NCBI RefSeq assembly: GCF_029919115.1
Contig: NZ_CP123990.1
Location: 4,614,501 to 4,678,500, forward strand
Source: Variovorax paradoxus
GTDB lineage: Bacteria; Pseudomonadota; Gammaproteobacteria; Burkholderiales; Burkholderiaceae_C
Reading direction: 5' to 3'
DNA: 64,000 nt
The notes under the pieces were generated by a model that saw nothing but the letters and a program-made list of their open reading frames with translations, was not told the origin of the DNA and ran no database searches. The translations under genes and the position numbers were made by a program. Of this stretch, positions 56,118 through 59,489 are shown piece by piece (within the stretch, counting starts at the first letter, position 1; the number at the start of each line of letters is the position of its first letter).

Positions 56118-56206
56118 CGCTGCGCACGGGTGAACGAGCCCGGGACTTTAGCGGGTGAAAAGCCTGGGGGCTTTCCCCGTTCTGCAAGACACACAGCCTT
56201 CAAAAC

Positions 56207-56222
56207 TGTATATTCATACAGT
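56207..56222. promoter_or_regulatory. LexA (SOS) box upstream of the radical SAM/UdgX operon
   Basis: CTGTATATTCATACAG fits the proteobacterial LexA consensus CTGT-N8-ACAG exactly, with an A/T-rich centre, AA before it and TA after it. It is the only AT-rich stretch in the area and lies 21 bases before the GTG start of the radical SAM gene. It would place the two downstream DNA-repair genes under SOS control. Confidence 0.8.
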
Positions 56223-56243
56223 ATTTTAAGTGCCCAGTTTCCC

Positions 56244-57497
56244 GTGGACCTCCAGCGCAAACTCGCCATCCTTGCGGACGCCGCCAAGTACGACGCCTCG
56301 TGCGCGTCCAGCGGCTCGCAGCCGCGCGACTCCATCGGCGGGCGCGGCATCGGCTCGACCGAGGGCGCCGGCATCTGCCACAGCTTCGCGCCGGACGGGC
56401 GCTGCATCTCGCTGCTCAAGGTGCTGCTCACCAACCACTGCCAGTACGACTGCCTCTACTGCGTCAACCGCGCGTCGAGCAACGTGCCGCGCGCGCGCTT
56501 TCGCGTCGACGAGGTGGTGCAGCTCACGCTCGACTTCTACCGCCGCAACTGCATCGAGGGCCTGTTCCTGTCCAGCGGTATCGTCAAGTCGCCGGACCAC
56601 ACGATGGAGCAGGTGGTCGAGGTGGCGCGCACGCTGCGCGAAGACCACGACTTTCGCGGCTACATCCACCTCAAGACCATTCCCGATGCAAGCGACGAGC
56701 TCATCGCGCGCGCCGGCCGCTATGCCGACCGCCTGAGCATCAACGTCGAGATGCCGACCACCGAAGGCCTGCAGGCGCTCGCACCCGAGAAGGATGAAAG
56801 CGCCATTCGCCGTTCCATGGCGCGGCTGCGGCTGCGCATCGACGACACGCGCGAAGAGGCGCGCCGCGTGGTGCCGATTCGCGCGCTGCCTGGCGCGGCG
56901 CCCGCCGCCGCAAATCCGCCGCCCTTTGCGCCCGCGGGCCAGAGCACGCAGATGATCGTGGGCGCCGACGCCACCGACGACCGTCAGATCCTTGCCTCGA
57001 GCGCCACGCTCTACGGCGCCTACAAGCTCAGGCGCGTGTACTACTCCGCCTTCAGCCCTATTCCCGACGCCGCCCGCGCGCTGCCGCTGGTGGCGCCGCC
57101 GCTGATGCGCGAGCACCGGCTCTACCAGGCCGACTGGCTCATGCGCTTCTACGGCTTCGGGCACCAGGAAATCGTGGCCGAGCCCGACGGCCTGCTGCGG
57201 CTCGACGTCGATCCCAAGATGGCCTGGGCGCTCGCGCATGCCGACCGCTTTCCGGTCGACCTGAACCATGCGCCGCGCGAAATGCTGTTGCGCGTGCCGG
57301 GGCTCGGCGTGAAAGCCGTCGAACGGCTGCTGCAGGCGCGGCGCGTGCGCCGGGTGCGCGCGGACGACCTCCGGCGGTTGCACGTGCCGGCGCGCAAGGT
57401 GCTGCCGTTTGTCGTTGCGGACGGGCACCGGCCATCGCGCGGGGCGCCCATGCCTTCGCCGGTGCCGCAGCGCGCTGCGCAAGCCTCGCTGTTCTGA
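56244..57497 (+). CDS. Putative DNA modification/repair radical SAM protein (TIGR03916-like)
   Basis: 417 residues from GTG 56244, whose DLQRKLAILADAAKYDASCA matches the usual start of the family. The [4Fe-4S]-binding CxxxCxxC is Cys66, Cys70 and Cys73 in NHCQYDCLYC. A helix-hairpin-helix-like DNA-binding segment, LLRVPGLGVKAVERLL, lies near residues 350-365. The family occurs next to UdgX-type uracil-DNA binding proteins and its reaction is unknown. An open frame extends upstream to 56130, but it would cross the LexA box. The partner gene begins 15 bases after its stop. Confidence 0.88.
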   Translation: MDLQRKLAILADAAKYDASCASSGSQPRDSIGGRGIGSTEGAGICHSFAPDGRCISLLKVLLTNHCQYDCLYCVNRASSNVPRARFRVDEVVQLTLDFYRRNCIEGLFLSSGIVKSPDHTMEQVVEVARTLREDHDFRGYIHLKTIPDASDELIARAGRYADRLSINVEMPTTEGLQALAPEKDESAIRRSMARLRLRIDDTREEARRVVPIRALPGAAPAAANPPPFAPAGQSTQMIVGADATDDRQILASSATLYGAYKLRRVYYSAFSPIPDAARALPLVAPPLMREHRLYQADWLMRFYGFGHQEIVAEPDGLLRLDVDPKMAWALAHADRFPVDLNHAPREMLLRVPGLGVKAVERLLQARRVRRVRADDLRRLHVPARKVLPFVVADGHRPSRGAPMPSPVPQRAAQASLF

Positions 57498-57512
57498 GCC
57501 GAGCCATTTGCC

Positions 57513-59489
57513 ATGCACGTGCGGCTCGACGACCCGGTCGATCTCGACGCCTTTCGCCGCCACGCGCGGCAGCTGCTCGCAGCGGGCGTGGCGCCGGACC
57601 GCGTCGAATGGAACGCGGTGCAGGCCGCCGGCGATGCCGCCGATCTGTTCGGTGCGGGGGGCGATGCCGCGCCGCCAGCAGCGCTTGCTACCGCCGCAGA
57701 ACGGCAGCCCGTGCCCGCATGGTTCGTCGAACTGTGCGGCGACGTCATCCTGCACCGCGACCCGCAGCGCCTTGCTTTGCTGTACCGGCTGCTGTGGCGC
57801 CTTTCGCACGAGCCCGCGTTGCGGCACGACCCGCTCGACGCCGACCTGATGCAGGCCCGGCAGATGGCCAAGGCCGTGCACCGCGACATCCACAAGATGC
57901 GCGCCTTCGTGCGCTTTACCCGCGTGACGGGCGAAGACGGCCTGGAACGCCACGTGGCGTGGTTCGAGCCCGAGCACCGCATCGTCGAAGCCAACGCAGC
58001 TTTTTTTGCGCGCCGCTTCGCGCAGATGCGCTGGGCCATCCTCACGCCCGAGCGTTGTGTGGAATGGAACGGCCATGCGCTGGCCTTCCGCGATGGCGCC
58101 GACCGCCGCGAGAAGCCGCCGCCCGATGCCGGCGAGCAGCTCTGGCTGACCTACTACGAACACATCTTCAACCCGGCGCGGCTCAAGCTCGCGATGATGC
58201 GGCGCGAAATGCCGCGCCGCTACTGGCGCAACCTGCCCGAGGCCACGCTGATCCAGCCGCTGGCCGAGGCCGCTGCCGCGCGCAGCCAGTCGATGATCGA
58301 GGCGCCGCCTACCGCGCCGCGCCGCATCCGCGCGCCCATTGCGCTGCACCTGCGGCCGGCGGCGGGCGTGGAACCCGCCAACCTTGGTGAATTGCGCGCC
58401 GCGGCGCGTGCCTGCCGCGACTGCCCCATCGGCGCGCTCGCCACGCAGGCCGTGTGCGGCGAAGGTCCGCTCGGCGCCACGCACATGCTGGTCGGCGAGC
58501 AACCGGGCGACCAGGAAGACCTGGCGGGCCGGCCCTTCGTCGGCCCCGCGGGCCAGTTGCTCGACCGCGCAATGGCACAACTGGGCTGGGCGCGCGACAC
58601 CGTGTACCTGGCCAACGCCGTCAAACACTTCAAGTACGAGCTGCGCGGCAAGCGCCGCATCCACAAGACCGCAGGCCAACGCGAGGCCGAAGCCTGCGCC
58701 CATTGGCTCGAGAGCGAAATTTCGCTGGTCCGGCCGCAGGCCCTGGTGGCGCTGGGTGCCACCGCCGCGCGCACCCTGCTGGGCCGCCCGGTGGCGGTGC
58801 AGGCCGAGCGCGGTGCGTGGCTGCACGAGCGCGGCGATGGCCGGCCCGTGTTCGTGACCCTGCATCCGTCGGCCCTGCTGCGCCTGCCCGACGTGGAGCG
58901 CGCCGAAGCCTTCGAGCGCTGGCTGGCCGACCTTGCGGCGGCGCGGCACGCTTTCTGCTGCAGTCGCGGCATGAAAGAACAAGCTTCCGCTGCAGCCCCT
59001 TTGCGCATCGCACCGCTCACGCCGCACGCCTTTGCGCCCTATGGCACCGTCATCGAGGCGCCCGCTGCCGGAGGCCGCGCCATCAACGGCGGCAACGCAA
59101 GGCGCTTCGACCTGCTCGACAACCTGCAGCTCGATGCCGCGGGCGGCCGCGCGATGCTCGCGCTGTTCCGCGCCGGGGCGCGCAGCTTTCCGCACGACGT
59201 GGCAGAGATGGAACGCCATGCGCTCGGCAGCCAGACCTTCGTGCCGTTGGGCGAGCGGCGCTTTGTGATCGTGGTCGCTCGCGCGGGGGAAGCGCCGGCC
59301 TCTGCGGGAGACCTGGCCGCCTTCGTTACCGACGGTCGGCAGGGCGTGGTGCTCGCGCCCGGCACCTGGCACCACGCGCTGCTGGCGGTGGATGCGGGAG
59401 ATTTCGTGGTGATCGAGCGCGCCGGAGAGGCGGTCGATTGCGATCTCTGCGCGCTCGCGGCACCGGCGGTTGTCGACTGGAAGGGCTAG
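57513..59489 (+). CDS. udgX: Triple fusion: TIGR03915 domain, UdgX-type uracil-DNA binding domain, AllA-like ureidoglycolate lyase domain
   Basis: 658 residues in one uninterrupted frame. Residues 1-~270 are the TIGR03915-type domain that accompanies radical SAM proteins of this kind. About 285-485 is UdgX (uracil-DNA glycosylase superfamily): GEQPGDQED at 328-336, the R-loop KRRIHK with His384, which in UdgX forms the covalent link to abasic DNA, and LHPSALLR at 450-457. Residues 487-658 match ureidoglycolate lyase (AllA): MERHALGSQTF, then GTWHHALLAV. Met487 (ATG 58971) could start a separate protein, but no ribosome site precedes it and no stop separates the domains. The first two parts are a known pairing; the AllA tail is unusual. 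Confidence 0.87.
   Translation: MHVRLDDPVDLDAFRRHARQLLAAGVAPDRVEWNAVQAAGDAADLFGAGGDAAPPAALATAAERQPVPAWFVELCGDVILHRDPQRLALLYRLLWRLSHEPALRHDPLDADLMQARQMAKAVHRDIHKMRAFVRFTRVTGEDGLERHVAWFEPEHRIVEANAAFFARRFAQMRWAILTPERCVEWNGHALAFRDGADRREKPPPDAGEQLWLTYYEHIFNPARLKLAMMRREMPRRYWRNLPEATLIQPLAEAAAARSQSMIEAPPTAPRRIRAPIALHLRPAAGVEPANLGELRAAARACRDCPIGALATQAVCGEGPLGATHMLVGEQPGDQEDLAGRPFVGPAGQLLDRAMAQLGWARDTVYLANAVKHFKYELRGKRRIHKTAGQREAEACAHWLESEISLVRPQALVALGATAARTLLGRPVAVQAERGAWLHERGDGRPVFVTLHPSALLRLPDVERAEAFERWLADLAAARHAFCCSRGMKEQASAAAPLRIAPLTPHAFAPYGTVIEAPAAGGRAINGGNARRFDLLDNLQLDAAGGRAMLALFRAGARSFPHDVAEMERHALGSQTFVPLGERRFVIVVARAGEAPASAGDLAAFVTDGRQGVVLAPGTWHHALLAVDAGDFVVIERAGEAVDCDLCALAAPAVVDWKG

Follow-up and report, generated by a model that had tools for sequence, protein, structure and literature searches.

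Spore photoproduct lyase and SplB are radical S-adenosylmethionine (radical SAM) enzymes tied to DNA repair and to the SOS response. In a 2013 neighbourhood study, the domain DUF4130 was associated with SplB-like radical SAM proteins and with uracil glycosylases (PMC3765255; this and the other papers are cited from excerpts of their texts). A 2021 study of Bacteroidetes, which links SplB to SOS, described motifs of LexA type in front of a COG1573-COG4277 operon and refers to Verrucomicrobia and Alphaproteobacteria as well (PMC8565304). Here we describe an operon of this kind in a window of 64,000 nucleotides of the Variovorax paradoxus genome (contig NZ_CP123990.1, positions 4,614,501 to 4,678,500), where a LexA box precedes a radical SAM gene of the family TIGR03916 and a second open reading frame (ORF2) that joins DUF4130 to UdgX, a member of the uracil-DNA glycosylases (UDG). 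We take COG4277 to be the same TIGR03916 radical SAM family. The best explanation of the whole, and in our judgement a fairly probable one, is that LexA represses an operon which encodes a two-protein DNA-repair system.

The box, CTGTATATTCATACAG, is a perfect palindrome on the forward strand, followed by a GTG at 56244 that is the likely start codon of the radical SAM gene; ORF2 (658 codons) begins 15 nt past the stop codon of that gene. An earlier note on this DNA had placed a LexA box ahead of the two-gene unit, which we confirmed with the start of the box moved from 56207 to 56206 and the gap to the start codon from 21 to 22 nt. Only one promoter-like site was found between 56050 and 56350 (shuffle mean 0.0), and its -10-like hexamer TATATT (56209-56214) falls within the box. 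As a bare pattern such a box is weak evidence, and it draws its weight from position and conservation: the genome (5.81 Mb, a single contig) has 26 perfect CTGT-N8-ACAG sites versus 15 for the reversed pattern, and the exact 16-mer occurs three times. Within the window, CTGTATATTCATACAG is the only perfect match to the pattern, and the eight matches with one mismatch lie below the shuffle mean of 16.2. Being perfect, conserved and built over a -10-like hexamer, the box is a predicted LexA-type operator at the promoter, as far as sequence can tell. The genome yielded one LexA DNA-binding domain, and the gene that encodes it is preceded by two tandem CTG-N10-CAG sites. Other perfect or clean LexA-like boxes occur elsewhere in the genome (L007, L008, L028, L276-L279), some of them near repeated small ORFs. 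The genes behind three other perfect sites are presumably SRAP, imuA and a PA0069-type radical SAM gene, the last being a separate radical SAM gene with its own SOS box; most of the remaining perfect sites of the 26 have no obvious gene behind them.

The box is widely kept before this gene. Our same-family set comprised the window and 86 fetched loci from 85 genomes (one with two copies), 87 loci in all, including three split or fragmentary ones (L113-L115). A box was counted if it was perfect, or had C at position 13 or G at position 4, and lay within -120 to +12 of the conserved start; loci L119-L125, with matches far under the family cut-off, were excluded from all counts, L116 duplicates the window, and L208 (Brachymonas) stands outside the counted groups. 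So defined, a box precedes the radical SAM gene in 80/87 family loci (perfect in 55/87), against a Markov-shuffle expectation of 0.34 and control counts of 0/87 inside the gene and 1/87 far upstream. A looser count, with any one mismatch and a wider stretch, gave 82/87. Absence of the box in close relatives had been named beforehand as a sign against SOS control, and the family loci show its presence instead. Boxes of the same type stand at 15 of the 18 loci from other Gammaproteobacteria. In the 47 Pseudomonadota loci outside Gammaproteobacteria, taken here as Alphaproteobacteria, the alphaproteobacterial motif (GAAC-N7-GAAC or GTTC-N7-GTTC) was present at 47/47 (expectation 0.28; both controls 0/47). 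Two motifs, CTAA-N5-TTAG and GGA-N5-TCC, are reported for the Bacteroidetes LexA (PMC8565304). One or the other was found at 36 of 72 Bacteroidota loci, the first at 23 (controls 0 and 0) and the second at 13 (controls 0 and 5, the far-upstream count being noisy at 5/72); the other 36 have neither of these two motifs, no third one having been searched for. When the sets of loci were compared, no CTGT or CTAA box appeared outside its expected group, and the off-group matches were the alphaproteobacterial motif in 4/72 Bacteroidota and GGA-N5-TCC in 2/18 other gammaproteobacterial and 2/47 alphaproteobacterial loci. Because the box is kept in relatives and the association persists under other LexA motifs, SOS control of the operon is strongly supported by comparison. 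The pair recurs in very different bacteria, each with its own LexA-type switch, and this would mark it as a real DNA-repair system, chemically unsolved.

The geometry of the operator is also recurrent. A -10-like hexamer (at least 4 of 6 matches) lies inside 71 of the 80 family boxes, at the same place as in the window in 46 of them, and in 38/80 of the family loci that have a box, the box and the GTG start codon share the final G of the box. The distance from box end to start is at most 10 nt in 31/47 alphaproteobacterial, 1/15 other gammaproteobacterial and 6/36 Bacteroidota loci. Within the family, Shine-Dalgarno-like words precede 3/86 radical SAM starts versus 23/85 approximate starts of the second gene; the difference is slight in other Gammaproteobacteria (2/18 versus 4/18) and reversed in Alphaproteobacteria (10/47 versus 5/45). 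These alignments of sequence elements support an operator that would cover the -10-like element and, in many family members, touch the start codon. We infer coverage of the transcription start by LexA and, in many family members, a leaderless message; the message in the window would be expected to have a short leader. The terms SOS box, leaderless and LexA occur together in five papers, and we claim no priority for the leaderless idea.

Which protein is the constant partner of the radical SAM enzyme bears directly on what the operon does. TIGR03916 scored over its cut-off in 86 of 399 same-family genomes and in 4 of 229 genomes sampled from the whole class. Among 349 genomes from across the phylum, TIGR03916 was found over cut-off in 70 and TIGR03915, the DUF4130 family, in 73; by-eye comparison of the two lists placed TIGR03915 in 70/70 TIGR03916 genomes and alone in three (G813, G828, G894). 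DUF4130 is likewise present in 70/72 Bacteroidota loci. UdgX passed its cut-off in 65 of the 399 family genomes, that is in 50/86 of those with the radical SAM gene versus 15/313 of those without it (odds ratio 28, p = 6e-27), and 36/86 genomes with the gene contain no UdgX that reaches the curated cut-off anywhere. None of the 72 Bacteroidota loci had a UDG match on the strand of the operon within the fetched stretch. On a fast tree of 169 rows, the presence of UdgX changes at least 13 times when L153, L154, L155, L177 and L193, in which the second gene is cut or was not found in the locus, are left unlabelled, and 15 times with all labels kept; the tree excludes L113, L114, L115, L087, L116, rows shorter than 330 residues and, of the Bacteroidota rows, four in five. 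In Pseudomonadota, the box is retained at 92/98 loci with a UdgX match versus 50/54 without one (45/49 after excluding five that are cut or have an intervening gene). Because the box is kept alike with and without UdgX, SOS control follows the radical SAM-DUF4130 pair. These distributions support DUF4130 as the near-obligate partner and UdgX as a detachable, optional C-terminal module.

It has been described that UdgX adducts are irreversible, their resolution being left to RecA pathways or proteases (PMC10359453). UdgX might then be the working part of the operon, trapping uracil or apurinic/apyrimidinic (AP) sites during SOS, with the radical SAM protein and DUF4130 resolving or repairing the UdgX-DNA adduct. 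We consider this unlikely: the fusion in this genome, the genomic enrichment of UdgX and its preserved catalytic loop all fit such a role, but the 36 pair-bearing family genomes that have no UdgX over cut-off, the 72 Bacteroidota loci with no UDG domain seen and the 15 family genomes with UdgX and no pair do not. The earlier note had proposed a joint role on uracil in which the radical enzyme repairs what UdgX holds; as the core of the system this is unsupported, since DUF4130 is constant and UdgX optional, and a joint uracil mechanism is unlikely to be the whole story. Of 101 UDG matches next to the radical SAM gene, 96 keep the covalent-loop histidine, and four of the other five end before the loop. 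Because UdgX is enriched and its histidine kept, uracil or AP sites probably matter in the versions that carry UdgX. The UDG domain of locus L164 has no covalent-histidine loop in spite of a nearly full-length match, and it may be a variant or decayed UdgX. The Variovorax genome described here encodes a further UdgX that stands alone and has the KRRIHK loop, at L275:2553-3245 (2281552-2282244), with the box CTGTATGAAAGAACAG near its start; we take the ORFs next to it to encode an AlkB-like protein and a DinG-like helicase.

The patchy distribution of the radical SAM gene (86 of 399 family genomes, 4 of 229 across the class), together with 158 plasmid records that carry it, raises the question of mobile or defence-type cargo placed under SOS control as part of selfish elements. 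We regard this as very improbable, because 142 of the 158 plasmids are typed non-mobilizable, PADLOC gave no match at E <= 0.01, viral contigs yielded 2 relatives, and of 10 phage records the one inspected reads as bacterial chromosome. A defence system and phage carriage were rejected on these last results. The inspected record (CAKLQH020000003.1, L332, labelled Acinetobacter phage MD-2021a) looks like mislabelled bacterial DNA, because glyQ/glyS and other chromosomal genes flank the pair. Of the plasmid records, of which 25 were listed, many belong to Phaeobacter, Paracoccus, Azospirillum and Leisingera, and in the one plasmid record inspected UdgX lies directly downstream.

Of the matching proteins labelled with an organism, the best are from Variovorax and relatives. 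Profile searches defined both proteins (Table 1). The first matched TIGR03916 (rSAM_link_UDG) with 549.7 bits against a curated cut-off of 343.5, and its CxxxCxxC cysteines do not vary across 83 aligned radical SAM sequences. ORF2 has three in-frame parts: TIGR03915/DUF4130 at residues 10-244 (208.4 bits, cut-off 112.25; PF13566 127.6 bits, cut-off 27), TIGR03914 UdgX at 246-476 (268 bits, cut-off 189.95) and a ureidoglycolate lyase at 497-654. The UdgX part has GEQPG at residue 328, KRRIH at 380-384 with the nucleophilic His384, and an intact HPSALLR. The TIGR03916-like protein with Cys66, Cys70 and Cys73 and the TIGR03915-UdgX protein with a KRRIHK loop and covalent-linking His384, both named in the earlier note, are thus borne out; three additional invariant cysteines (20, 45 and 54) and the lyase part had been overlooked there. 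Two close relatives, whose radical SAM proteins show 98% and 97% identity, have a separate lyase gene with its ATG overlapping the TGA of UdgX, and compared with them the window has two bases fewer just before the UdgX stop, so that the frame runs on into the lyase. Because the genes are separate in these relatives and differ by two bases, the lyase fusion is either recent or an assembly error, and it replaces the UdgX tail only. Three less close relatives had no lyase gene in the stretch fetched.

Table 1. Positions, within the window, of the predicted operator, promoter and coding features of the operon.
Feature	Position	Strand	Basis
LexA (SOS) box CTGTATATTCATACAG	56206..56221	+	sequence; same box type in 80/87 family loci
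Sigma-70-like promoter: AAGACA, 17 nt, TATATT	56186..56214	+	consensus match only
TIGR03916 radical SAM protein, 417 residues, CxxxCxxC Cys66/70/73	56244..57497	+	profile, alignment, sequence
Stretch with three extra invariant cysteines Cys20, Cys45, Cys54	56301..56405	+	83-sequence alignment
Helix-hairpin-helix-like segment LLRVPGLGVKAV and following residues	57285..57350	+	sequence
ORF2 (whole)	57513..59489	+	open reading frame
DUF4130 / TIGR03915 domain, near-obligate partner	57513..58244	+	profiles; model pLDDT 88
UdgX domain (TIGR03914): GEQPG 58494-58508, KRRIH 58650-58664, His384 58662-58664, HPSALLR 58863-58883	58248..58940	+	
Ureidoglycolate lyase (AllA-like), in frame with UdgX	58971..59489	+	PF04115, 148.8 bits

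The additional cysteines open another interpretation of the radical SAM chemistry. Lipoyl synthase and MiaB carry a second iron-sulfur cluster and offer the comparison for the N-terminal three-cysteine set, and Cys20, Cys45 and Cys54 are possible ligands of such a cluster. The enzyme could accordingly modify DNA or its partner protein, for instance by sulfur insertion or methylation, with no lesion repair, and use the N-terminal cysteines for the second cluster. The three invariant cysteines upstream of CxxxCxxC speak for this idea, as do the fold matches listed for the predicted model (pLDDT 86.5), which include lipoyl synthase, MiaB and RlmN. We nevertheless find it improbable, as SOS-type regulation better suits a damage response and the N-terminal region is of low confidence in the model, for which reason no cluster site is readable from it. 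Spore photoproduct lyase was absent from the best 50 matches of either structural list, a result that excludes nothing. By sequence, the helix-hairpin-helix (HhH)-like segment resembles RuvA and ComEA-like chains only weakly (E 0.058 to 0.14).

In the two-protein repair system that we favour, DNA damage would lead to LexA cleavage and both proteins would be made. The radical SAM enzyme may be held on DNA via its C-terminal HhH-like segment and DUF4130, and its SAM radical chemistry would act on a lesion that builds up in the course of SOS, either processing or reversing it. In versions with a fused UdgX, the covalent hold of UdgX on uracil or AP sites could position or protect the site. A bolder version, which we think unlikely as a package, is an undescribed radical SAM and DUF4130 repair machine with a second N-terminal iron-sulfur site, an inactive RecJ-like (DHH-fold) DNA clamp, a leaderless message in many relatives under an operator that reaches the start codon, a target lesion that builds up during SOS across many bacteria, and UdgX as an optional covalent anchor. 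For the clamp, comparison of DUF4130 with RecJ by hhalign gave probabilities of 0.3% (shallow RecJ set) and 0.1% (36 RecJ) against 0.2% for a reversed control, a null at this sensitivity. By sequence, no solved structure firmly matches either core protein, and in eight DUF4130-only proteins scanned (four from Bacteroidota) PF13566 was the sole match.

Several observations weigh against the repair-operon explanation or parts of it. The expected box is missing in 7/87 family, 3/18 other gammaproteobacterial and 36/72 Bacteroidota loci, as well as at the one Brachymonas locus. All eight Moraxellaceae loci had none of the tested boxes, bar one match to the loosest pattern, no Moraxellaceae-specific motif having been tried. 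The -10-like hexamer lies within the box in just 6/15 other gammaproteobacterial and 23/47 alphaproteobacterial loci. DUF4130 had no statistically firm fold or sequence match, and the case for lesion repair as such is drawn from family names, regulation and fold only. Finally, the enrichment of UdgX at p = 6e-27 means that uracil may play a central part in this lineage. The Moraxellaceae loci (L126, L190-L194, L235, L237) carry a radical SAM/DUF4130 pair of Bacteroidota type, which suggests transfer with loss or change of control.

Genes that stay under SOS control across several LexA recognition motifs make good candidates for genuine repair functions, and the pair is among them. With DUF4130 as the constant partner, UdgX should be treated as the variable part and the radical SAM-DUF4130 pair as the first experimental target. 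In the literature searched, we found no co-mention of UdgX with radical SAM, nor of these two with LexA, and no mention of TIGR03915 or TIGR03916; radical SAM, uracil DNA glycosylase, SOS and LexA occurred together in PMC3765255 only. DUF4130 was mentioned in a single paper, and among the ten papers listed for COG4277 or LexA a single one mentions COG4277. By term search, the texts of two UdgX studies (PMC10776899, PMC10359453) contain neither "radical" nor "SOS", and that of a Caulobacter SOS paper (PMC12700426) mentions neither a glycosylase nor radical SAM; Caulobacter has four genes of the uracil-glycosylase family (PMC1839093).

Compared with the described systems, the present operon is, on its sequence features, a further member of a known SOS operon with a different LexA motif. 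Spore photoproduct lyase and SplB are radical SAM enzymes too, but when solved structures were searched by sequence at E <= 1, no radical SAM chain matched the protein described here. UdgX of Mycobacterium smegmatis (6ail, 6ajo) shares the KRRIH loop and GEQPG motif and is alignable over residues 288-477; the solved UdgX chains have 205-229 aa, whereas here UdgX forms the C-terminal portion of a fusion with DUF4130 that an SOS operon encodes. With the operon of PMC8565304 the locus shares, as far as the excerpts of that study go, the radical SAM family, the two-gene layout and a LexA-type operator, but it has CTGT-N8-ACAG and a real UdgX. For the Bacteroidota loci covered here, "uracil-glycosylase operon" seems a misnomer, because their partner is DUF4130 and no UDG domain was seen. 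The earlier note had called the gene association known, and rightly: the excerpts of PMC3765255, a study of the SOS network, name DUF4130, SplB-like radical SAM proteins and UDG together, the same three components as here. The statement there concerns gene neighbourhood, to which we add conservation of the operator across LexA motifs, the dependence on DUF4130 and not on UdgX, and the start-codon geometry; a constant DUF4130 with optional UdgX, and an operator overlapping the start codon, are features that we did not meet in the excerpts of the earlier literature.

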